From Nitrosomonas sp. (lineage in GTDB: Bacteria > Pseudomonadota > Gammaproteobacteria > Burkholderiales > Nitrosomonadaceae), in assembly GCA_024281995.1 (NCBI GenBank), contig JAMWZW010000013.1, forward strand, positions 1 through 64,000: a DNA stretch of 64,000 bases, read 5' to 3'. A program made the translations under genes and the position numbers. The notes under the pieces were generated by a model. It saw only the letters and a program-made list of their open reading frames with translations, searched no databases and was not told the origin of the DNA. Positions within the stretch are counted from its first letter, which is position 1. Each line of letters begins with the position of its first letter. Below, piece after piece: positions 1-9,672 of the stretch.

Positions 1-1343
1 TCACCATCCCACGGCCCCGCTATATTACCGTTGACATGCCATTGTGCCTGGAATGCAGGTTCGCTGGCATTAACTAAGGCTTTGACTTCATCGACTTTGC
101 GATTGTGCTCGGCATGGAAAATGGTATGTACCGTCGTCAACCCGATATTTTCGTTGCCGCGGCCGTCACCGGTGATGAAATGCGCATCGAGCAATTCATC
201 ATCGTATTCTCCGGCTTCTGGTGGTACTTGATTAATGAAATTATCGCCATCAGCGGTTTTCATCGCGCCCGCAGAATTTCGTGGTGCTGCATTATGTGCA
301 ATGTCATCCAGGAAAGCATGGCCTGTACGTACCGCTCCTGCAGTACTGATCGGTGCGTTAGGATTTCCCTCAGTCAGATTATTACCTGGAAACACGACTT
401 GCGGAAAACCATTTGGACCAGGAATAAATTGTCCATAACTGTCTGTTGCCAGTAATGGCAAATCGGTAATATCAGCATCCGATAGGTTGATACCCAACAG
501 ATCTCGCGCCTGCGCTTTGACTTCGGCCCAATTCGCAAGTCCGCCCGCACCATTGCCACCTTCCAGCAATTTACCTGTGGAAACCGGATCGCCCCCATTT
601 AGCGCATATTCACGTAAAAAAACCTGGTGTGAAGGATGCGAAGTATATGTTTGGTTTTGATCAATGAAAGGTGTAGTTTGATTGACATGCTCATGCTGCC
701 CGCCTTGATTGGTCGCCCGTGTCACGGTCATGAAATTCGGGGCGCCTGGAGTGTCGTCATACAACGGATCATCCGGCTGCAACGGCACAAATACTGTACC
801 GCTATTGCCTTTGTTAACGAGATCCAAACCATGATCGAAGAACTGGCCGAACAATGTAAACCAGGAATTGTATGGCGCTGACAAGCCTTGGTCCGGCGTT
901 ACGTTGGGAATAAAGTACGTCGTAAAGTCTGTGCCATCCATACGGGTGCCATTAACCAGCTCCGCACCGGGTGTTTGATTAAAGGCCGCTTCAGCCGCTG
1001 GATTGTTAGGCGTCTGATCAACAATAAAATTACTGATGGTACGCGGTTGCGAATCGGTTACGATACCACTGAATTGCGCATAAGACGTTCCCCCTTCTGC
1101 AGTTTTAAAATTGGGGGGTAATAGGCGTGGAAAAATCTGGTCTGCTGCGCCAAAAAATCTTTGACCAGGCTCCAGGTTATTATACGACCCGTCGACATTA
1201 CGCAAACCATCCCGCAATACAGGACTGCCAACAAGCCCTGGCAGTGCAGTGAAGTTGCCGTTGCGTTGTGCGGCTGAATCATCTTCAGCAAGCAAAATTT
1301 GCTGAAGGACAAAATCAAGATCGGTTCTACTAAAATCTGCCAT
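1..1343 (-). CDS. Animal-type haem peroxidase, 3' end outside window
   Basis: The gene starts at ATG 1343-1341, after a GTGAGG ribosome-binding site, and stays open to the window edge (447 complete codons), so the C-terminus is missing. I translated it by hand from the reverse strand. Residues about 165-174 read FGQFFDHGLD, which resembles the distal-histidine/calcium-binding motif of the animal haem peroxidase superfamily. Around residue 390 the motif GDGRGNENIGL is followed by TTVHTIFHAEHNR, matching the conserved core of this family. Bacterial members are often large secreted proteins with C-terminal calcium-binding repeats, a part that cannot be seen here. No N-terminal signal peptide is visible, which suits type I secretion, but that is inference. 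It is divergent to three multicopper oxidase genes and carries the same upstream operator-like element, so co-regulation is likely. The family is well supported; the substrate is unknown. Confidence 0.85.
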   Translation of the reverse strand, partial: MADFSRTDLDFVLQQILLAEDDSAAQRNGNFTALPGLVGSPVLRDGLRNVDGSYNNLEPGQRFFGAADQIFPRLLPPNFKTAEGGTSYAQFSGIVTDSQPRTISNFIVDQTPNNPAAEAAFNQTPGAELVNGTRMDGTDFTTYFIPNVTPDQGLSAPYNSWFTLFGQFFDHGLDLVNKGNSGTVFVPLQPDDPLYDDTPGAPNFMTVTRATNQGGQHEHVNQTTPFIDQNQTYTSHPSHQVFLREYALNGGDPVSTGKLLEGGNGAGGLANWAEVKAQARDLLGINLSDADITDLPLLATDSYGQFIPGPNGFPQVVFPGNNLTEGNPNAPISTAGAVRTGHAFLDDIAHNAAPRNSAGAMKTADGDNFINQVPPEAGEYDDELLDAHFITGDGRGNENIGLTTVHTIFHAEHNRKVDEVKALVNASEPAFQAQWHVNGNIAGPWDG

Positions 1344-1522: not shown

Positions 1523-1589
1523 ATATTAGCGATGCTCGTGCAATAAAAATATTGGCAAACTACTTGTTTTTTTCTAAGCAATTACTTAG
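1523..1589 (-). promoter_or_regulatory. Operator plus -10 element of the peroxidase gene
   Basis: On the minus strand the inverted repeat CTAAGTAATTGCTTAG (1589-1574) is followed after exactly 45 bp by TAATAT (1528-1523). Downstream of the palindrome comes AAAAAAACAAGTAGTTTGCC, nearly the same as the copy in front of the first multicopper oxidase gene. The distance to the ATG is about 180 bp. No sigma-70 -35 box stands out, which suggests an activator-dependent promoter (inference). The rest of the 1344-2018 gap holds the divergent copy of this element and no convincing gene. Confidence 0.6.
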
Positions 1590-1841
1590 AAAAGCCATCA
1601 GATGGTAGGAATTTTCTTATATCAAAGAAAAATTAATGGCTCTACATTGGCATTACTCATAGATCCACCCCGCCACACTTCATTTTTCCTGCCTGATTAG
1701 TTATAACTATTTGACTTATATTGAAAGATAGCGCTCAAGTCACACACTACTTTCAGCATATAGCAACACAGTTTTGCTTCATTGAAATCCAAGCTTAATA
1801 AAAACTTGCGATCATTAATACGAATCGATATCAATACGCTA

Positions 1842-1908
1842 CTAAGTAAATACTTAGATAAAAACAAGTATTTTGCCAATATATTTCACAATCAAGTAGT
1901 TCTACTAT
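1842..1908 (+). promoter_or_regulatory. Operator plus -10 element of multicopper oxidase gene 1
   Basis: The perfect 7-bp inverted repeat CTAAGTA-AA-TACTTAG (1842-1857) is followed by ATAAAAACAAGTATTTTGCC and, 45 bp after the palindrome, by TACTAT (1903-1908). The AAGTA half-site recurs 22 bp downstream, about two helical turns away. The palindrome centre lies about 53 bp upstream of the -10-like hexamer, a position compatible with an upstream activator site. The binding protein is not identified. Confidence 0.6.
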
Positions 1909-2018
1909 ACAAGCCACATCATAGGTCTGTGATGCAGTTTGTCCTATCGATTAAAGATTTAATTAAGAAAAAAAATGAGCAGCGATAGTATCAATGAGGG
2001 TAAGAGGAGGGAAATAAT

Positions 2019-3881
2019 ATGAAGTCTAATGAAAATGATTTAACGCATGATAGCAGCAATGATTTAACCCGCAACAATACACCAGATTCACCAGTTGATG
2101 AGTCACGGCGAGCTTTTTTTAAAGCAACTGGAGCCACACTTGTCGCGGCACCGGCAATTCTGACTTCGCGTAAAAGTGAAGCGCAAGCTGTTGCCCTGCC
2201 ACCAAGCCCAGCAACCACGCCTTGGCTGGTTGAATTGCCCAAAGCAATCGAACCTTTACAACAAACCGATTTGCTAACCGATCCTTATCGCATACCGCAA
2301 GGTCCGGCAAATACTGCGTATGATGAATGCGGGCGTAATCAACACCAGCGTTGGGCGGAGTTCTTTAATGGCCCACAAGCACAGTATGGCGAAGCGGATC
2401 TCTATGAATTAAGAGTACAAGAAATTAGTGATCATGTGTTTCACCCACAATACCCACCCCAGCTTGTTTGGAATTACGTAGGTGAACACGCAAATGGCGA
2501 TCCGTATCCGAATCCAGTCATTCATGCACGCTACGGCAAACCGGTAATCCTTCGCTTATACAATGAATTACCGGAGGATCATACGGGTTTTGGCACACCG
2601 GAAGTCAGCTTGCATCTGCACAATTTGCATACCCCTTCCGAAAGTGACGGCTTCCCCGGCGACTATTTCAGTGAAACCAAAGCAGGACCGACGATTTCCG
2701 GGCCAGGAAAATTTAAAGATCAGTTTTATCCCAATGTGTATGCAGGATATGATGATTTTCCCAAGGATCCTGTTACCAATCCTGTTGGCGGAGACAAACG
2801 TGAAGCATTGGGTACGTTGTGGTATCACGACCATTGCCTGGATTTTACCGCCGCCAATGCAACACGCGGCATGGCCGGTTTCTACTTGATTTATGACGAG
2901 CTTGATTCAGGTAACGAAAACGACCCCAATCCTGCAGCGCTGAGATTGCCAAGCCACCCTTACGACTATCCGTTGGCATTCCAGGACAAACGTTTCGATG
3001 CCGCTGGCATTCAAATTTTTGATCAACTGGATCCGGAAGGCACTTTCGGCGACAAAATCACGGTCAATGGCAAGATTGAACCGGTGTTAAGAGTCGCGCG
3101 CCGTAAATACCGCTTACGACTGCTCAATGCAGGGCCATCGCGGTTCTACCAATTTCACTTGGTAAATGGCGCCAATACGCAACAAACCTTCACCTATATT
3201 GCCAATGACGGTAATCTGTTACCCGCACCATTGCTCAATCGCACCAATGTGAGACTGGGCGTTGCCGAGCGCGGGGATATCGTGGTGGATTTCTCGCGCT
3301 ATCCTGTGGGAACACAGTTGTATCTCGTTAACCGTCTGGTACAAGACGATACCCGCGGACCCAGAGGTGTTCAAGCGCCCGGTACACGTGTGCTCAAATT
3401 TATCGTTGAAGCACTGCCTGCCGGCGAAGTGGATAATAGCCGCGTACCCACAAGTTTGCGTCCGATCCGCAGACCAACCGCAGCAGAAATTGCGGCAGCA
3501 CCTGTAAGAAATTGGGTGTTTGCACGCAAGAATGGCTTATGGACTATCAATGACAGATTAGTCAATGTTAATTCCGCTGCTGCGCACATCGCTCCGGGAA
3601 GTTTTGAAGTATGGAATCTCGATAATCCATCGGGTGGCTGGAGTCATCCCGTGCACATCCATTTTGAAGAAGGTCACATTCTGAAAAGATTCGTAAATGG
3701 CGTTCAAGTAGCCGTACCTGCACATGAAAAAGGGCGTAAGGATGTTTATGTACTAGGACCTAATGAACGTATACAGCTTTTCATTCGTTTCCGCGATTTT
3801 CCAGGAAAATATGTCATGCATTGCCACAATATGATCCACGAAGACCACGCCATGATGGTGCGCTGGGATATTGTCGATTAA
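2019..3881 (+). CDS. Tat-exported multicopper oxidase, copy 1
   Basis: A three-domain cupredoxin oxidase of the laccase/CotA/bilirubin-oxidase type, 620 residues. It begins with a twin-arginine signal (SRRAFFKATG, residues 29-38), so the folded, copper-loaded enzyme should be exported to the periplasm or beyond. Copper ligands are visible in order: HLHNLH at about 199-204, WYHDH at about 268-272, HPVHIH near 545, and HCHNMIHEDHAMM at about 601-613. The last motif contains the type 1 cysteine, its histidine, and a methionine ten residues after the cysteine as likely axial ligand. The start is supported by GGAGGG before the ATG. A SCO-type copper chaperone gene follows 19 bp after the stop, so the two form an operon. 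Two paralogues lie downstream. The family is certain. The substrate (phenolics, metal ion such as Mn(II) or Cu(I), or bilirubin-like compounds) cannot be deduced. Confidence 0.92.
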   Translation: MKSNENDLTHDSSNDLTRNNTPDSPVDESRRAFFKATGATLVAAPAILTSRKSEAQAVALPPSPATTPWLVELPKAIEPLQQTDLLTDPYRIPQGPANTAYDECGRNQHQRWAEFFNGPQAQYGEADLYELRVQEISDHVFHPQYPPQLVWNYVGEHANGDPYPNPVIHARYGKPVILRLYNELPEDHTGFGTPEVSLHLHNLHTPSESDGFPGDYFSETKAGPTISGPGKFKDQFYPNVYAGYDDFPKDPVTNPVGGDKREALGTLWYHDHCLDFTAANATRGMAGFYLIYDELDSGNENDPNPAALRLPSHPYDYPLAFQDKRFDAAGIQIFDQLDPEGTFGDKITVNGKIEPVLRVARRKYRLRLLNAGPSRFYQFHLVNGANTQQTFTYIANDGNLLPAPLLNRTNVRLGVAERGDIVVDFSRYPVGTQLYLVNRLVQDDTRGPRGVQAPGTRVLKFIVEALPAGEVDNSRVPTSLRPIRRPTAAEIAAAPVRNWVFARKNGLWTINDRLVNVNSAAAHIAPGSFEVWNLDNPSGGWSHPVHIHFEEGHILKRFVNGVQVAVPAHEKGRKDVYVLGPNERIQLFIRFRDFPGKYVMHCHNMIHEDHAMMVRWDIVD

Positions 3882-4592
3882 ATTACAAGGAAACCCTATC
3901 ATGAAAAAAGAACAATCAACACAAAATACGCGTAGAGAAATGCTCGCCGGTATGGGTTTAGCCACACTGGGTTTGATCGGACTAAACAGTGCGTGGCAAA
4001 AATTGGCAGATATCTCAGCCGATCCAGAACCCAATCGATTCATACCTCGCAGTGATACATCGTTTCCAAACGTCACGCTGTATACACACGACGGCGAGAC
4101 GGTCAATTTTTACGACGATGTGATTCACAATAAAGTCGTCGCCATCAATATGATGTACACCCAGTGCGGCGGCATTTGCCCGCGTTCGACAGCAAATTTG
4201 GTCGAAGTACAAAAGATGTTAGGTGATCGAATCGGACGCGATGTATTCATGTACTCGATCACATTGCAGCCTGAACTGGATTCACCACGGAAACTTAAAC
4301 AGTACGCTGAACGCCATGGCATTGGAGCCGGCTGGAAATTTCTAACAGGTACACCGGAAGATATCGAGATGGTTCGATACAAGCTAGGTTTTTATGATCG
4401 CGATGAAGATTTGGATAATATCAGGGAAAACCATACCGGCATGGTGCGCATCGGCAACGATGCGCTTAATCGCTGGAGCATGGCCCCTGCTCTAGCCGAA
4501 CCGCATCAGATCATGGCGACTATTAATCATCTTGATCCAAAAGCGATACACACCTCGGCTGTGCATCTTTTTGATCAACAGCACGGCTAAAT
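3810..4592 (+). repeat. Near-identical duplicated block, copy A
   Basis: This block covers the last codons of multicopper oxidase 1, the intergenic ribosome-binding site and the whole first SCO gene. It matches 6680-7462 at a constant offset of 2870 with only three substitutions (positions 3916, 4053 and 4116), and similarity falls off sharply on both sides. The rest of the oxidase genes is far more diverged, which points to gene conversion or a very recent partial duplication. Confidence 0.9.
3901..4590 (+). CDS. SCO1/SenC-family copper chaperone, copy 1
   Basis: A 229-residue thioredoxin-fold protein of the SCO1/SenC/PrrC family, whose members bind copper and deliver it to extracytoplasmic copper enzymes or act as thiol reductants. 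The CxxxCP copper motif is present as QCGGICP, and the third ligand is probably the histidine in ENHTGMVRIG near residue 180. The N-terminus (TRREMLAGMGLATLGLIGL) looks like a Tat-type or membrane-anchoring signal. I chose the ATG at 3901, preceded by AAGGAAA, over an upstream ATG overlapping the oxidase. It lies 19 bp behind a multicopper oxidase gene and ahead of a terminator, so copper loading of that oxidase is the likely job (inference). It differs from the second copy by one residue, Ser6 versus Pro6. Confidence 0.85.
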   Translation: MKKEQSTQNTRREMLAGMGLATLGLIGLNSAWQKLADISADPEPNRFIPRSDTSFPNVTLYTHDGETVNFYDDVIHNKVVAINMMYTQCGGICPRSTANLVEVQKMLGDRIGRDVFMYSITLQPELDSPRKLKQYAERHGIGAGWKFLTGTPEDIEMVRYKLGFYDRDEDLDNIRENHTGMVRIGNDALNRWSMAPALAEPHQIMATINHLDPKAIHTSAVHLFDQQHG

Positions 4593-4619
4593 CAACCGTA
4601 ATATAACTCGTTGTAATTC

Positions 4620-4659
4620 CACTAATTCCTGCAATCGCAGGAATTAGTGCGGTCCTTTT
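4620..4659 (+). terminator. Rho-independent terminator after SCO copy 1
   Basis: A perfect 13-bp stem (CACTAATTCCTGC with its complement, 4620-4632 and 4637-4649) with a 4-base loop is followed shortly by CCTTTT. It lies 29 bp after the SCO stop codon and closes the first oxidase-SCO unit. Confidence 0.8.
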
Positions 4660-4688
4660 AAATCCTCTATATCGATATCAACCGAAAA

Positions 4689-4755
4689 CTAAGTAAGTAC
4701 TTAGACAAAAACAAGAATTTTCCGACTTTACTCCTAAAAGCTACACTCCTACTAT
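4689..4755 (+). promoter_or_regulatory. Operator plus -10 element of multicopper oxidase gene 2
   Basis: The perfect inverted repeat CTAAGTA-AG-TACTTAG (4689-4704) is followed by ACAAAAACAAGAATTTTCC and, 45 bp downstream, by TACTAT (4750-4755). Spacing and flank match the other three oxidase promoters. It lies after the terminator of the previous unit, so each oxidase unit appears to be transcribed independently. Confidence 0.6.
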
Positions 4756-4852
4756 AAAAACTGGCTCATCAATCCCGAGACCTTTTTGTTCCTGTAACTT
4801 AAACAGTAGCGCCAATTAATCAGATATACCTTCAAGTAAAGGGGAAAATATC

Positions 4853-6751
4853 ATGAAACAGCATAACGAAGATGGTTCCACAATTAACGGCAATCCTGAA
4901 TGTATGCAAAATAGTTCTTATGTTCCTGCAGCGAACGAATCCAGGCGTGCTTTTTTTAAAACAACGGGGGCTACGATCCTTGCGGCACCGGCAATCTTGA
5001 CTACACGCAAAAGTGTTGCACAAGTAGTTGAGCCGGTATTACCGCCCAGTCCACCCACCACACCCTGGAAGGAGGAATTGCCCGAAATAATCGAACCGTT
5101 GCAGCAAACAGATCTTTGTGATGGTCCTTTACCACCCCAAGGTGAGGCTAATACCGCCGCAGGCGAGTGTGGACGCGCTAAGCACCAACGCTGGGACGAA
5201 TTTTTTGGCAGTGCGGTGCTGCAGTCCGGCCAAGCCGACACCTATGAATTGAGGGTTGAAGCGATTACCGATCATGTATTTCATCCGGATTATCCACCCC
5301 AGCTCGTGTGGAATTACGTAGGCCGTACTGAAAGTGACAATGAGCATCCCAATCCGACGATTGTCGCGCGCTATGGACATCCTGTTATCGTTCGTTTATA
5401 TAATGAAATAGAAAAAAATCATCAGCATGTCGGCTTTGGTACGCCAGAAATCAGTATGCATTTGCATAATCTGCATACGCCTTCTGAGAGTGACGGCTTT
5501 CCAGGTGACTATTTCAGCACGACAAAATCCGGCCCAACGCTCGGTGCACCCGGTACATTCAAAGATCATTTCTACCCCAACGTGTATGCGGGCTATGACG
5601 AATTCCCCAAAAACCTCAATAATCCTGTTGGTGGAGACAAGCGCGAAGCGTTGGGTACGCTGTGGTACCACGATCATACGTTGGATTTCACGGCGCCAAA
5701 TGCTAGCCGTGGTATAGCAGCTTTTTACCTGATCTATGACGAAATTGATTCAGGCAATGAGCACGATACCAACCCTAAAGCCTTGCGATTACCAAGCCAT
5801 CCCTATGATTATCCATTAGTATTTCAGGATAAGCGTTTTGGCGGTGTTGGCACTGCCAATGAAAGGATCCATATATTCGATCAGTTTAGTCCTGAAGGTA
5901 TTTTGGGTGACAAAATCACAGTCAATGGCAAAATCGAACCCGTACTCAAAGTTGCTCGCCGCAAGTATCGCCTCCGCTTGCTCAATGCGGGGCCAAGCCG
6001 CTTTTACCAATTTCATTTAGTCAATGGTTCAAACGTGCAACAGAGATTTACTTATATTGCCAACGACGGCAACCTTTTGCCCAGATCACTCATCAATCGG
6101 ACCAATGTGAGATTGGGCGTAGCGGAACGTGGCGATATCATCGTAGACTTCTCTCAATATCCACAAGGAACGGTACTTTACCTCGTCAACCGGCTGGTGC
6201 AAGACGATACCCGTGGGCCAAAAAAAGTTCAAGCGCCAGGTACACGAATCCTCAAGTTTATTGTCGATCGCGAACCTGCTGAGCCGGATGTCAGTCGCCC
6301 GATTGATAGTCAAGTACAAATCCCGTTGCGTTCAATACGCAGACCAACCGCATCAGAAATCGCGGCAGCACCCGTCAGACGCTGGGTGTTTGCGCGCAGA
6401 AATGGTATGTGGGCTATTAATGATCAGTTTGTCAATGTCAACTCTTCACGTGCCAATATGGCGAAAGGCAGTTCGGAAATCTGGGAATTGGATAATCCAT
6501 CAGGGGGTTGGAGTCACCCTGTTCATATCCACTTTGAAGAGGGCATCATTCTCAACAAATTTGTAGATGGCATTCAAGTGCCCATACCCGTACACGAAAG
6601 AGGACGCAAGGATGTTTATGTGCTGGGGCCGAACACACGCCTGAGAGTATTCCTGCGTTTCCGCGATTTTCCCGGAAAGTATGTCATGCATTGCCACAAT
6701 ATGATCCACGAAGACCACGCCATGATGGTGCGCTGGGATATTGTCGATTAA
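4853..6751 (+). CDS. Tat-exported multicopper oxidase, copy 2
   Basis: Paralogue of the preceding oxidase, 632 residues. It has a twin-arginine signal (SRRAFFKTTG) and all copper-ligand clusters: MHLHNLH, WYHDHTLDF, HPVHIHFEEG and HCHNMIHEDHAMM near the C-terminus. Against copy 1 it carries small insertions, for example GGVGTANERIH in the second domain and SRPIDSQVQIP before the third. This shows long separate evolution except at the extreme 3' end, which is identical to copy 1. The ATG at 4853 follows AAAGGGGAAAA. A SCO gene follows 19 bp after the stop. The gene sits between its own operator and a terminator. The function is copper-dependent oxidation outside the cytoplasm; the substrate is unknown. 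Confidence 0.92.
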   Translation: MKQHNEDGSTINGNPECMQNSSYVPAANESRRAFFKTTGATILAAPAILTTRKSVAQVVEPVLPPSPPTTPWKEELPEIIEPLQQTDLCDGPLPPQGEANTAAGECGRAKHQRWDEFFGSAVLQSGQADTYELRVEAITDHVFHPDYPPQLVWNYVGRTESDNEHPNPTIVARYGHPVIVRLYNEIEKNHQHVGFGTPEISMHLHNLHTPSESDGFPGDYFSTTKSGPTLGAPGTFKDHFYPNVYAGYDEFPKNLNNPVGGDKREALGTLWYHDHTLDFTAPNASRGIAAFYLIYDEIDSGNEHDTNPKALRLPSHPYDYPLVFQDKRFGGVGTANERIHIFDQFSPEGILGDKITVNGKIEPVLKVARRKYRLRLLNAGPSRFYQFHLVNGSNVQQRFTYIANDGNLLPRSLINRTNVRLGVAERGDIIVDFSQYPQGTVLYLVNRLVQDDTRGPKKVQAPGTRILKFIVDREPAEPDVSRPIDSQVQIPLRSIRRPTASEIAAAPVRRWVFARRNGMWAINDQFVNVNSSRANMAKGSSEIWELDNPSGGWSHPVHIHFEEGIILNKFVDGIQVPIPVHERGRKDVYVLGPNTRLRVFLRFRDFPGKYVMHCHNMIHEDHAMMVRWDIVD

Positions 6752-7462
6752 ATTACAAGGAAACCCTATCATGAAAAAAGAACAACCAACACAAAATACG
6801 CGTAGAGAAATGCTCGCCGGTATGGGTTTAGCCACACTGGGTTTGATCGGACTAAACAGTGCGTGGCAAAAATTGGCAGATATCTCAGCCGATCCAGAAC
6901 CCAATCGATTCATACCTCGCAGCGATACATCGTTTCCAAACGTCACGCTGTATACACACGACGGCGAGACGGTCAATTTTTACGATGATGTGATTCACAA
7001 TAAAGTCGTCGCCATCAATATGATGTACACCCAGTGCGGCGGCATTTGCCCGCGTTCGACAGCAAATTTGGTCGAAGTACAAAAGATGTTAGGTGATCGA
7101 ATCGGACGCGATGTATTCATGTACTCGATCACATTGCAGCCTGAACTGGATTCACCACGGAAACTTAAACAGTACGCTGAACGCCATGGCATTGGAGCCG
7201 GCTGGAAATTTCTAACAGGTACACCGGAAGATATCGAGATGGTTCGATACAAGCTAGGTTTTTATGATCGCGATGAAGATTTGGATAATATCAGGGAAAA
7301 CCATACCGGCATGGTGCGCATCGGCAACGATGCGCTTAATCGCTGGAGCATGGCCCCTGCTCTAGCCGAACCGCATCAGATCATGGCGACTATTAATCAT
7401 CTTGATCCAAAAGCGATACACACCTCGGCTGTGCATCTTTTTGATCAACAGCACGGCTAAAT
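6680..7462 (+). repeat. Near-identical duplicated block, copy B
   Basis: Second copy of the block at 3810-4592, with three substitutions in 783 bp. It again covers the 3' tip of the oxidase gene, the ribosome-binding site and the SCO gene. The terminators behind the two copies are unrelated in sequence, so the conversion tract ends just after the stop codon. Confidence 0.9.
6771..7460 (+). CDS. SCO1/SenC-family copper chaperone, copy 2
   Basis: A 229-residue protein identical to the first SCO copy except for Pro6. It carries the same QCGGICP copper motif, the same candidate ligand histidine in ENHTGMVRIG and the same N-terminal twin-arginine-like signal. It is translated from the ATG at 6771, behind AAGGAAA and 19 bp after the second oxidase gene. 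It probably supplies copper to the oxidases. With both copies essentially identical, the chaperone is under gene-dosage increase or homogenisation rather than specialising for one oxidase. A terminator follows 26 bp downstream. Confidence 0.85.
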   Translation: MKKEQPTQNTRREMLAGMGLATLGLIGLNSAWQKLADISADPEPNRFIPRSDTSFPNVTLYTHDGETVNFYDDVIHNKVVAINMMYTQCGGICPRSTANLVEVQKMLGDRIGRDVFMYSITLQPELDSPRKLKQYAERHGIGAGWKFLTGTPEDIEMVRYKLGFYDRDEDLDNIRENHTGMVRIGNDALNRWSMAPALAEPHQIMATINHLDPKAIHTSAVHLFDQQHG

Positions 7463-7486
7463 TACTCGCAGCATAGTTTATTGAGA

Positions 7487-7528
7487 TACCGCCGGTTCCT
7501 GAAAATGCAGGAACCGGCGGTATTTTTT
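7487..7528 (+). terminator. Rho-independent terminator after SCO copy 2
   Basis: A perfect 15-bp stem (TACCGCCGGTTCCTG at 7487-7501 with its complement at 7508-7522) and a 6-base loop are followed directly by TTTTTT. This is one of the strongest intrinsic terminators in the window. Confidence 0.88.
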
Positions 7529-7573
7529 AGTAACCGGCTTGGCGTCCATGCAATATCCCAAACACAGCTAAAT

Positions 7574-7640
7574 CTAAGTAAGCACTTAGATGAAATCAAG
7601 AACTTTCTGACTTTACTCTGCAAGCCTGCACGCCTACTAT
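7574..7640 (+). promoter_or_regulatory. Operator plus -10 element of multicopper oxidase gene 3
   Basis: The inverted repeat CTAAGTA-AG-CACTTAG (7574-7589, one mismatch between arms) is followed by ATGAAATCAAGAACTTTCTG and, 45 bp after it, by TACTAT (7635-7640). The stretch GACTTTACTC after it is shared with the copy 2 promoter, which makes these two the closest pair. Confidence 0.58.
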
Positions 7641-7800: not shown

Positions 7801-9672
7801 ATGAAACGCCATAACAAGGATGATTCCACACACACTTGCAATTCCGGGAATGCACAAATCAATACTTCCGTTCCTGCAGTAAACGAATCGAGACGTGCTT
7901 TTTTCAAAACAACCGGCGCCACAATCCTTTCGACACCGGCAATCTTAACTTCGCGAAAAAGCGCTGCACAGGTAGCTGTTCCCATACTGCCACCCAGCCC
8001 ACCCACCACACCGTGGCGAGAAGAACTACCCATAGCAATTGAACCGCTAGTCCAAACTGATTTATTTGCAGGACCTTTACCGCCGCCTCAAGGAGAGGCG
8101 AATACCGCCGCAGGCGAATGTGGACGCGCTGAACATCAGCGCTGGAATGAATTCTTTGCTGCTCCGGTTCTTCAGCCCGGGGAGGCAGATCTTTATGAAT
8201 TGAAGGTTGAAGCAGTTACCAATCATGTATTCCATCCGAATTATCCACCTCAGCTCGTGTGGAATTACGTCGGTCGTACTGAAAGTGGCACGCCTCTCCT
8301 TAATCCTACGATTTTTGCCCACTACGGACGCCCGATCATCGTACGTTTGCATAACGAATTACCAGAAGATCATGGCAGTGACAGCAATGCACTGACAGCC
8401 TTCGGATCACCCGAAATCAGCATGCATCTGCACAATCTGCACGTGGCTTCTGAAAGTGACGGTTTTCCCGGTGACTTCTTCAGCAGAACAAAAAAAGGTC
8501 CGACACTTGGTGCGTCCGGCCTTTTCAAAGATCATTTGTATCCGAATGTTTATGCTGGCTTAGAAGAATTTGGTGGAATCGGAGATAGCCGCGAGGCACT
8601 GGGTACACTGTGGTATCACGATCATACGCTCAATTTCACCGCACCCAATGCGGTTCGTGGCATAGCAGCTTTTTATCTGCTGTTCGATGAACTCGATTCG
8701 GGCGATGAGCATGACACCAATCCAAATGCTTTGCGTTTACCGAGCCATCCTTACGACTATCCGCTGGTATTCAAGGACTTGCGTTTTAACGCGAATCGCA
8801 TTCATATATTCGATCAGTTCGATCCTGAGGGTACCCTGGGTGACAAAATCACGGTCAACGGCAAAATCGAACCGGTTCTGAGAGTCGCACGCCGCAAGTA
8901 TAGACTGCGTCTGCTCGATTCCGGGCCAAGCCGGTTCTACCAGTTTCATCTGGTCAATGCCGCAAATGTAGTACAGCGCTTCACCTATATTGCCAATGAT
9001 GGCAATCTATTGCCTACACCGCTGCTCAATCAAACCAGGATCAGATTAGCTGTGGCCGAGCGCGCGGATATTGTCGTGGATTTCTCGCAATATCCATTAG
9101 GAACGGAACTTTATCTCGTCAATCGCTTAGAGCAGGAAGATACGCGGGGTCCCGATGAAGTTAGGGCACCAGGCAGGCGTGTGCTCAAATTCATTGTCGA
9201 TCGCGAGCCTTCTGAACCGGATGTCAGCCGCGTGCCGAGTTTTTTGCGCCCGCTGCGCAGGCCTACTGCTGCCGAAATCGCAGCAGCGCGAGTCAGGAAT
9301 TGGGTATTTGCGCGTAAAAACGGTATGTGGTCAATCAATGACCGTTTCATGAATGCCAACAGTCCACGCATTACCATCGCAAAAGGCAGCGCGGAAATCT
9401 GGAACTTAAACAATCCATCCGGTGGTTGGAGTCATCCGATCCACATACATTTGGAAGAGGGAATTATCCTTAACAAGTTTGTCGATGGTGTCGCAGTACC
9501 CATACCCGCCCACGAAAGAGGACGCAAGGATGTTTTTGTGCTAGGGCCGAACACACGTATGCGAGTATTCATACGTTTTCGCGATTTCGTTGGAAAATAC
9601 GTCATGCATTGCCATAACACTATCCATGAAGATCACGCCATGATGGTGCGTTTTGATATTAGTGAAGATTGA
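7801..9672 (+). CDS. Tat-exported multicopper oxidase, copy 3
   Basis: Third paralogue, 623 residues, with twin-arginine signal SRRAFFKTTG. It keeps the copper-site motifs MHLHNLH, WYHDHTLNF, HPIHIHLEEG and HCHNTIHEDHAMM. It is closest to copy 2 in the N-terminal region (shared PPSPPTTPW and GEANTAAGECGRA). It differs by an insertion after the HNELPEDH segment and a shorter loop before the second histidine cluster. AAGGGGAAAATC precedes the ATG. Unlike the first two it has no SCO gene behind it; the next gene is on the opposite strand. It may therefore depend on SCO protein made from the neighbouring units (inference). Confidence 0.92.
   Translation: MKRHNKDDSTHTCNSGNAQINTSVPAVNESRRAFFKTTGATILSTPAILTSRKSAAQVAVPILPPSPPTTPWREELPIAIEPLVQTDLFAGPLPPPQGEANTAAGECGRAEHQRWNEFFAAPVLQPGEADLYELKVEAVTNHVFHPNYPPQLVWNYVGRTESGTPLLNPTIFAHYGRPIIVRLHNELPEDHGSDSNALTAFGSPEISMHLHNLHVASESDGFPGDFFSRTKKGPTLGASGLFKDHLYPNVYAGLEEFGGIGDSREALGTLWYHDHTLNFTAPNAVRGIAAFYLLFDELDSGDEHDTNPNALRLPSHPYDYPLVFKDLRFNANRIHIFDQFDPEGTLGDKITVNGKIEPVLRVARRKYRLRLLDSGPSRFYQFHLVNAANVVQRFTYIANDGNLLPTPLLNQTRIRLAVAERADIVVDFSQYPLGTELYLVNRLEQEDTRGPDEVRAPGRRVLKFIVDREPSEPDVSRVPSFLRPLRRPTAAEIAAARVRNWVFARKNGMWSINDRFMNANSPRITIAKGSAEIWNLNNPSGGWSHPIHIHLEEGIILNKFVDGVAVPIPAHERGRKDVFVLGPNTRMRVFIRFRDFVGKYVMHCHNTIHEDHAMMVRFDISED

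Follow-up and report, generated by a model that had tools for sequence, protein, structure and literature searches.

A tandem-operator promoter element before exported oxidase genes of Nitrosomonas and its probable NarL/GacA-like regulator

The site of GacA and UvrY is an 18-bp sequence, TGTAAG-N6-CTTACA, in the portions available of two reports (PMC4950607, PMC4682653). According to the available part of the latter, the palindrome at csrB is followed, 5 bp downstream, by another sequence that resembles a half-site and is conserved in part, and the strongest UvrY targets are the small RNA (sRNA) genes csrB and csrC, the csrB site lying near -182 (PMC4682653). DevR, in the portion available of a further study, binds cooperatively at a primary and an adjacent lower-affinity secondary site, with the proximal site overlapping the -35 region, and is autoregulated (PMC3029386). 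Here we describe a repeated promoter element, built on the palindrome CTAAGTANNTACTTAG, that precedes a heme peroxidase gene and three multicopper oxidase (MCO) genes in a stretch of 64,000 nucleotides of Nitrosomonas sp. (GenBank assembly GCA_024281995.1, contig JAMWZW010000013.1, positions 1 to 64,000), hereafter the window; its genome is referred to as G000. Judged from sequence and its conservation, the repeated sign is a real control element of ammonia-oxidising Nitrosomonas, and one two-protein signalling system probably reads it to turn on secreted enzymes along with surface proteins. To our knowledge, the regulation of ammonia oxidisers has been little explored. In the portions available, the literature treats NsrR (PMC1274295) and CRP/FNR regulators (PMC8510549); among the matches listed for the motif and for Nitrosomonas regulons, none dealt with this site, or with any regulator that acts on secreted oxidases or surface proteins.

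Pattern search recovered the four palindromes in the places and orientations reported by the initial annotation: on the minus strand at 1574..1589, before the peroxidase gene (site 1), and on the plus strand at 1842..1857, 4689..4704 and 7574..7589, before MCO genes 1, 2 and 3 (sites 2 to 4). Sites 2 and 3 are perfect palindromes, and sites 1 and 4 carry one mismatch each. The claim that a TANTAT hexamer lies exactly 45 bp from each palindrome proved correct at all four sites, the hexamer, a probable -10 box, being TAATAT at site 1 (1523..1528, minus strand) and TACTAT at the three others (1903..1908, 4750..4755 and 7635..7640, plus strand). An A-rich block, AAAAACAAG or GAAATCAAG, stands 3' of the palindrome. 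In 300 dinucleotide-preserving shuffles of the window no palindrome with at most one mismatch arose, and so none with TANTAT at +45, against four observed. When three mismatches were allowed, the expectation was 1.37 per window and 1 of 100 shuffles attained four, so the evidential weight rests on the strict match and the fixed spacing. The spacers of sites 3 and 4 have 21 of 29 bases in common; these two sites are related in part by duplication and are not fully independent.

The proposal of one operator architecture within an oriented promoter element was borne out beyond the window, where it recurs before homologous genes in many species of Nitrosomonas. Within named genomes, the nearest relatives of the MCO were those of Nitrosomonas. 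We scanned 43 of 44 MCO loci of relatives for the palindrome with at most two mismatches (L071 was omitted, and L037 and L060 had fewer than 140 bases upstream), and found it near the MCO gene at 15 of 24 Nitrosomonas-type loci, usually in the promoter of that gene or of its divergent neighbour. It was not found at this tolerance at the nine remaining loci (L034-L037, L040, L042, L044-L046), and was absent from all 19 scanned loci of Pseudomonas, Crenobacter and methanotrophs. A strict pattern search was positive in 11 of 61 genomes, and in none of 24 genomes of other genera of the order; it was superseded by a 44-nucleotide matrix (R1), built from 29 elements that included the window's four and relatives reached through the MCO. 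This matrix found matches in 42 of 85 genomes of the genus at E<=0.01 and in 25 at E<=2e-5, the threshold that defines a strong element. Its scan of the window returned the same four sites only, a result that is not independent because these sites were in the training set. A plasmid search with the MCO gave 768 records, all below 60% identity.

To describe the element's anatomy, we reduced 64 distinct elements to 43 by removing copies at least 80% alike; since the 43 had been chosen by the matrix trained on the window's sites and MCO-found relatives, their selection is partly circular. A half-site model derived from the palindrome (operator 1) had its best further same-strand match exactly 22 bp downstream (position 23; mean 2.22, compared with -8.60 for the best of 200 shuffles). 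This marks a weaker operator 2, AAG-N6/7-CTTA, 22-23 bp downstream of operator 1. Its right arm, CTTA, is present in 15 of the 43 elements (shuffle mean 2.2, maximum 10) and degenerate in the rest, including the window's four (CCAA, CGAC and similar). The operator-2 spacer is coupled to the position of the -10 box: with N6 the box stood at position 61 in six elements and at 62 in four, and with N7 at 61 in none and at 62 in 18, 15 of 43 being unclassifiable (p=5.6e-4), so that the box was one base nearer in 6 of 10 classifiable N6 elements and in none of 18 N7 elements. Together, the half-site at +22, the CTTA right arm and the coupling of spacer to -10 box indicate that the second conserved block, noted initially as a feature of its own, is present but is most plausibly the left half of a further operator. 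In the window, alignment, with the half-site scan at the first two sites, places imperfect operators 2 at 1552..1566 on the minus strand (left half ACAAGTA, right half degenerate), and at 1865..1879 (CAAGTATTTTGCCAA), 4712..4726 and 7597..7611 on the plus strand.

The initial annotation had also stated that a -35 box was lacking. Of the 43 elements, 11 read TTTACT and five TTTATT at element positions 39-44, with 17 bp separating this hexamer from the -10 box; in the window, sites 3 and 4 have TTTACT, a probable weak -35 box (4727..4732 and 7612..7617), contrary to that statement, which is nearer the mark for sites 1 and 2, with just TATTTT and TATATT. If transcription starts about 7 nt after the -10 box, as we assumed, the operators would be centred near -65 and -43. 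Activator dependence, suggested earlier, is plausible from this geometry. As a separate observation, three elements (L118, L120 and L121, in G022, G020 and G091) have a perfect or near-perfect dyad as operator 2 (ATAAGCATTTTGCTTAT) and an operator 1 reduced to one half; genes for PEP-CTERM proteins lie downstream of two of them (L118, L121).

The idea of a dedicated regulon was supported, and a specific regulator candidate emerged; the set of genes, however, is wider than the four oxidase genes and takes in RTX adhesin-like and other exported proteins. The window's own genome has further exact CTAAGYANNNRCTTAG palindromes at C1:284817, C3:59537 and C12:55401. Matrix matches at E<=0.01 number only six there (the window's four sites, C1:284817 and a partial match at C3:59537). 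The site at C1:284817 has the full architecture except for its -10-like hexamer, TATCCT, and precedes a gene for a 1435-aa RTX/Ig/cadherin protein; that at C12:55401, with a TTGACA hexamer, precedes a 1729-aa peroxidase with RTX repeats; and that at C3:59537 precedes a 455-aa protein without a Pfam match. At the last locus (L145, C3:59537-59600) we also observed two palindromes, one perfect and the other nearly so, 21 bp apart and followed by a full but degenerate element, forming an extended phased operator array. In relatives the element precedes further peroxidases, MCO-SCO pairs and, by sequence likeness, homologues of the RTX and 455-aa proteins, as well as a GlmS-like protein (SIS and GATase), a DUF2334 protein (L130) and small-heat-shock/alcohol-dehydrogenase genes. 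In one genome (L140; G101 C75) it stands upstream of a 231-aa open reading frame (ORF) and a phage-tail-sheath gene or operon, perhaps part of a contractile injection system.

No named regulator was found for the exact site, as the initial annotation had said, but its core, TAAG-N6-CTTA, is that of the published GacA/UvrY site, and for this reason we examined regulators of the NarL type. Three classes stand out among 30 genomes. Class I, whole or in pieces, occurs in 29 of the 30 regardless of elements. Class III is a NarL-type response regulator adjoining a HisKA_3 kinase, often beside a comEC-like gene (Pfam Competence), and lies repeatedly on the same contig as elements. In the sister species it has the Response_reg (101.7 bits) and GerE (69.3 bits) domains of the NarL/FixJ type (Pfam). 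The best NCBIfam model for this regulator is UvrY/SirA/GacA (NF007018), at 175.6 bits with a cut-off of 280, and because it is nearest to that family yet falls below the cut-off, we regard class III as GacA-like in its site and not as GacA; the closest solved structure is NarL (1a04), and a tree splits class III from classes I and II. Its kinase has HisKA_3, HATPase_c and a PAS-like match, which is below the Pfam cut-off in the sister species and above it in G098. The nearest model for the kinase is UhpB, with kinase and regulator both below the curated cut-offs of the NarX-NarL/UhpB-UhpA families. The PAS-like domain, with no other recognised sensor domain, suggests that the kinase may respond to a cytoplasmic cue. 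Among 250 genomes searched at the level of the order, five outside the genus have regulators at 49-52% identity. In class III the recognition helix is KTVSVH in those genomes with the most CTAAGTA elements; the other genomes mostly have KTVGVH, and there the dyads are often TAAGCA or TAAGGA with N7. Protein and operator may possibly covary.

Class III and the element co-occur. Among the 85 genomes, 26 have a class III regulator at 69% identity or more and 13 more have one at 49-62%. The genomes are related, and the p-values that follow are thus guides and not independent trials; counts are given as both/element only/regulator only/neither. For regulators at 69% or more and strong elements, the table was 22/3/4/56 (p=2e-13), with 18/1/8/58 and 22/4/4/55 at element cut-offs of 1e-7 and 1e-4; for any class III it was 23/2/16/44 (p=2e-8). 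The three element-only genomes are G000, G091 and G096, the last with a 59% identical class III regulator. Because class III was first noticed in 30 genomes picked by the presence or absence of the element, we tested the 55 genomes outside this discovery set separately, and the association was also seen there (12/2/4/37, p=3e-7). Dropping 12 near-duplicate genomes, chosen by eye, left it in place (12/3/2/56, p=2e-9).

Linkage of the genes points the same way. Nine genomes (G072, G093, G101, G027, G103, G090, G088, G092 and G096) have the regulator and a strong element no more than 20 kb apart on one contig, for which the probability is 1e-6 (9 of 23) or, counted by lineage, 5e-4 (6 of 20), on an assumed chance of 0.053 per genome. 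Three related genomes (G098, G099 and G011) carry, between the kinase gene and the regulator gene and directly before the latter, two dyads spaced about 23 bp that resemble the element, with matrix scores of 19.8, 14.1 and 18.4. In 140 kb scanned around 20 places, ten matches exceeded a score of 14: these three, six known strong elements, and one in G096 directly after the regulator and before an HSP20 gene. Elsewhere beside the class III regulator (G101, G026, G035 and G099), paired or single dyads precede adjoining genes for exported-looking repeat proteins, followed in G101 by a C39 peptidase gene. At these loci (L180:10202-14858 in G101, also L243, L247 and L241) the dyads have the form TAAG-N6/7-CTTA. 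The layout at L180 is reminiscent of the fap amyloid operons of Pseudomonas, and by this analogy L180 and like loci are possibly a Fap-like amyloid operon of Nitrosomonas.

Several observations weigh against class III as the reader of a tandem element. The regulator and its kinase were not found in the assembly of the window's own genome; neither were the sister's 9 kb around the kinase-regulator pair, short repeats excepted, nor ComEC, in a search without a positive control. As the sister genome (G102) has the kinase-regulator block, an assembly gap is the likely reason, and we infer that the window's own strain has a class III regulator. G091 has an element-like match without the regulator (89% complete, 7% contaminated), G016, G029, G076 and G077 have regulators at least 69% identical with weak element matches only, and a strong element is lacking in 12 of the 13 genomes whose regulators are 49-62% identical. 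No strict dyad was seen near the regulators of four order-level relatives (51-52% identical; loci were retrieved for four of the five), and none between kinase and regulator in G018 and G061, which belong to the same regulator lineage as G098 and G099. As to the element itself, four N6 elements hold the -10 box at position 62, and the C12:55401 site has operator 1 without operator 2. The surroundings of 30 class III loci, 106.2 kb in all, hold 14 strict dyads, and those of 30 class I loci, 106.6 kb, hold none. Yet in seven of these 14 cases the dyad is a single one of similar kind that stands 3' of the regulator, perhaps a terminator; one lies inside an ORF, and only three are in pairs before other genes. 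Matches to a loose tandem rule were obtained at 4 of 30 class III loci, at none of 30 class I loci, and at 2 of 13 other GerE-type loci of G000. With possible terminators and loose-rule matches elsewhere, the dyad count near regulators is by itself weak evidence. The single dyad 3' of the class III gene (AAATAAGCATnATGCTTATTT-like; L209, L211, L213, L214, L216, L218, L220) is within about 50 bp of it in five of seven cases, and may be a terminator hairpin or an operator.

Other readings of the element account for part of these data. The palindrome fits the lux-type box, CT-N12-AG, and could on that ground be read by a quorum-sensing LuxR protein; we hold this to be very improbable and rejected it, because the domain search of the window's own genome gave 15 GerE matches and no autoinducer-binding domain (PF03472), a point weakened by the incomplete assembly. 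There is as little to recommend a mobile repeat or duplication relic that spread with genes and is not an operator at all: sites 3 and 4 do derive partly from duplication, but position and orientation in the promoter are kept before unrelated genes in many species, the core is kept while the rest varies, and the element is rare in its own genome. Conceivably, the element is read by a regulator from one of the two other GacA-like classes of the NarL family in the same cell, class II (L016) or class I (L014/L015), and class III merely shares the clade. The window's own genome encodes both classes, UvrY/SirA/GacA is the top-scoring model for each, and class II is found in 22 of 25 strong-element genomes (22/3/27/33, p=2e-4). 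Even so, we think it improbable, given that three strong-element genomes of 99-100% completeness (G082, G088, G090) lack class II, that class II is present in 27 of 60 genomes without a strong element and shows no clear association in the 55 held-out genomes (11/3/23/18, p=0.20), and that class I is indifferent to the element and has no strict dyad near its 30 loci.

The direction of control also admits two answers. An operator that abuts the -35 region, as operator 2 does, has a geometry also able to repress, and the tandem operators might serve a repressor whose binding near -43, over the -35 box, would block RNA polymerase until a signal releases it. This appears unlikely to us: the strongest operator is the distal one, near -65, and the promoters are weak, with TTTACT at best as -35 and TANNAT as -10 box. 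Moreover, the layout matches that of activated DevR promoters, whose proximal site overlaps the -35 region in the part available of that study (PMC3029386).

We therefore favour, as reasonably probable, a promoter of the sigma-70 type whose two operators, in tandem, serve a single NarL/GacA-like response regulator, most likely class III, encoded next to a PAS/HisKA_3 kinase. Operator 1 (CTAAG-TANNTA-CTTAG), of high symmetry, would be centred near -65, and operator 2 (AAG-N6/7-CTTA), usually degenerate, 22-23 bp further on near -43, abutting a weak -35 box (TTTACT at best) that is followed 17 bp later by the TANNAT -10 box. Dimers of the phosphorylated regulator are predicted to bind operator 1 and to assist the binding of a further dimer to operator 2, on the same helical face; the bound regulator would then contact RNA polymerase and activate transcription from the predicted start. 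The activated set would comprise exported peroxidases, multicopper oxidases with SCO1, and RTX/cadherin adhesin-like proteins. If this is true, one kinase-regulator pair offers a handle on when nitrifiers alter their surface and secrete oxidative enzymes, with a bearing on attachment and on floc and biofilm growth in wastewater and soil. Site and candidate protein are both supplied, and can be tested together.

The target genes in the window are a truncated heme peroxidase gene, three MCO genes and two SCO1/SenC genes. The peroxidase gene (MADFSRTDLDF...) occupies 1..1343 on the minus strand and is cut off by the contig start (Pfam An_peroxidase, 86.7 bits for 3-1343; the ORF is in L085/L089). 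On the plus strand follow, by Pfam, MCO 1 at 2019..3881 (Cu-oxidase_2/_3, with a Tat-like signal, RRAFFK, recognised by eye), a SCO1/SenC gene at 3901..4590 (SCO1-SenC), MCO 2 at 4853..6751 and MCO 3 at 7801..9672; the Pfam scan covered the first SCO copy, to which the second is near-identical by sequence. The segments 3841-4590 and 6711-7460, each an MCO end with its SCO gene, share 747 of their 750 bases. The MCO proteins beside them are just 69-74% identical, and this juxtaposition points to recent duplication or gene conversion.

Compared with described systems, the candidate pair resembles NarX-NarL and UhpB-UhpA in having a HisKA_3 kinase that adjoins a NarL-type regulator, and differs in that its kinase, apart from HisKA_3 and HATPase_c, shows no more than a weak match to PAS. 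The NarL site is of the 7-2-7 type, unlike the operator arrangement of the element. With GacS/GacA and BarA/UvrY (SirA) it has in common a NarL-type regulator and the core TAAG-N6-CTTA of operator 1, and the spacing of the csrB half-site is within 1 bp of that between the element's operators, as far as the available portions of those reports extend. In the same portions the outer bases differ, the element having C-TAAG where the GacA/UvrY site has TG-TAAG, and the outer TG/CA is not found here; the predicted targets are structural genes with an operator near -65, as opposed to the sRNA genes and the site near -182 described for UvrY. GacS and BarA are hybrid kinases, whereas the class III kinase resembles UhpB. 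DevR/DosR is a parallel in layout, as a NarL-family regulator with a strong and a weak site, the proximal one at -35, and autoregulation, to the extent that the available account describes it. The half-site at +22, the coupling of spacer to -10 box and the TTTACT box all fit such a tandem arrangement; the right arm is degenerate in most elements, and binding and start sites are predictions. DevR/DosR has other targets and, by score, is not an orthologue (PDB 3c3w ranks below NarL, VraR and EvgA). Its recognition sequence, too, differs from the Nitrosomonas element. Tentatively, and with nearly even chances, we view the system as Nitrosomonas' own two-component system for its surface and extracellular chemistry, in which a PAS-HisKA_3 kinase and a NarL-type regulator would act directly, without sRNAs, through tandem TAAG-N6/7-CTTA operators. 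In this view the system would govern secreted heme peroxidases together with multicopper oxidases and RTX adhesin-like proteins, and in some species its reach would extend to PEP-CTERM proteins, a small heat-shock protein and a putative amyloid operon; the regulator gene would be self-controlled in some lineages, and operator and recognition helix would have diverged together between lineages.

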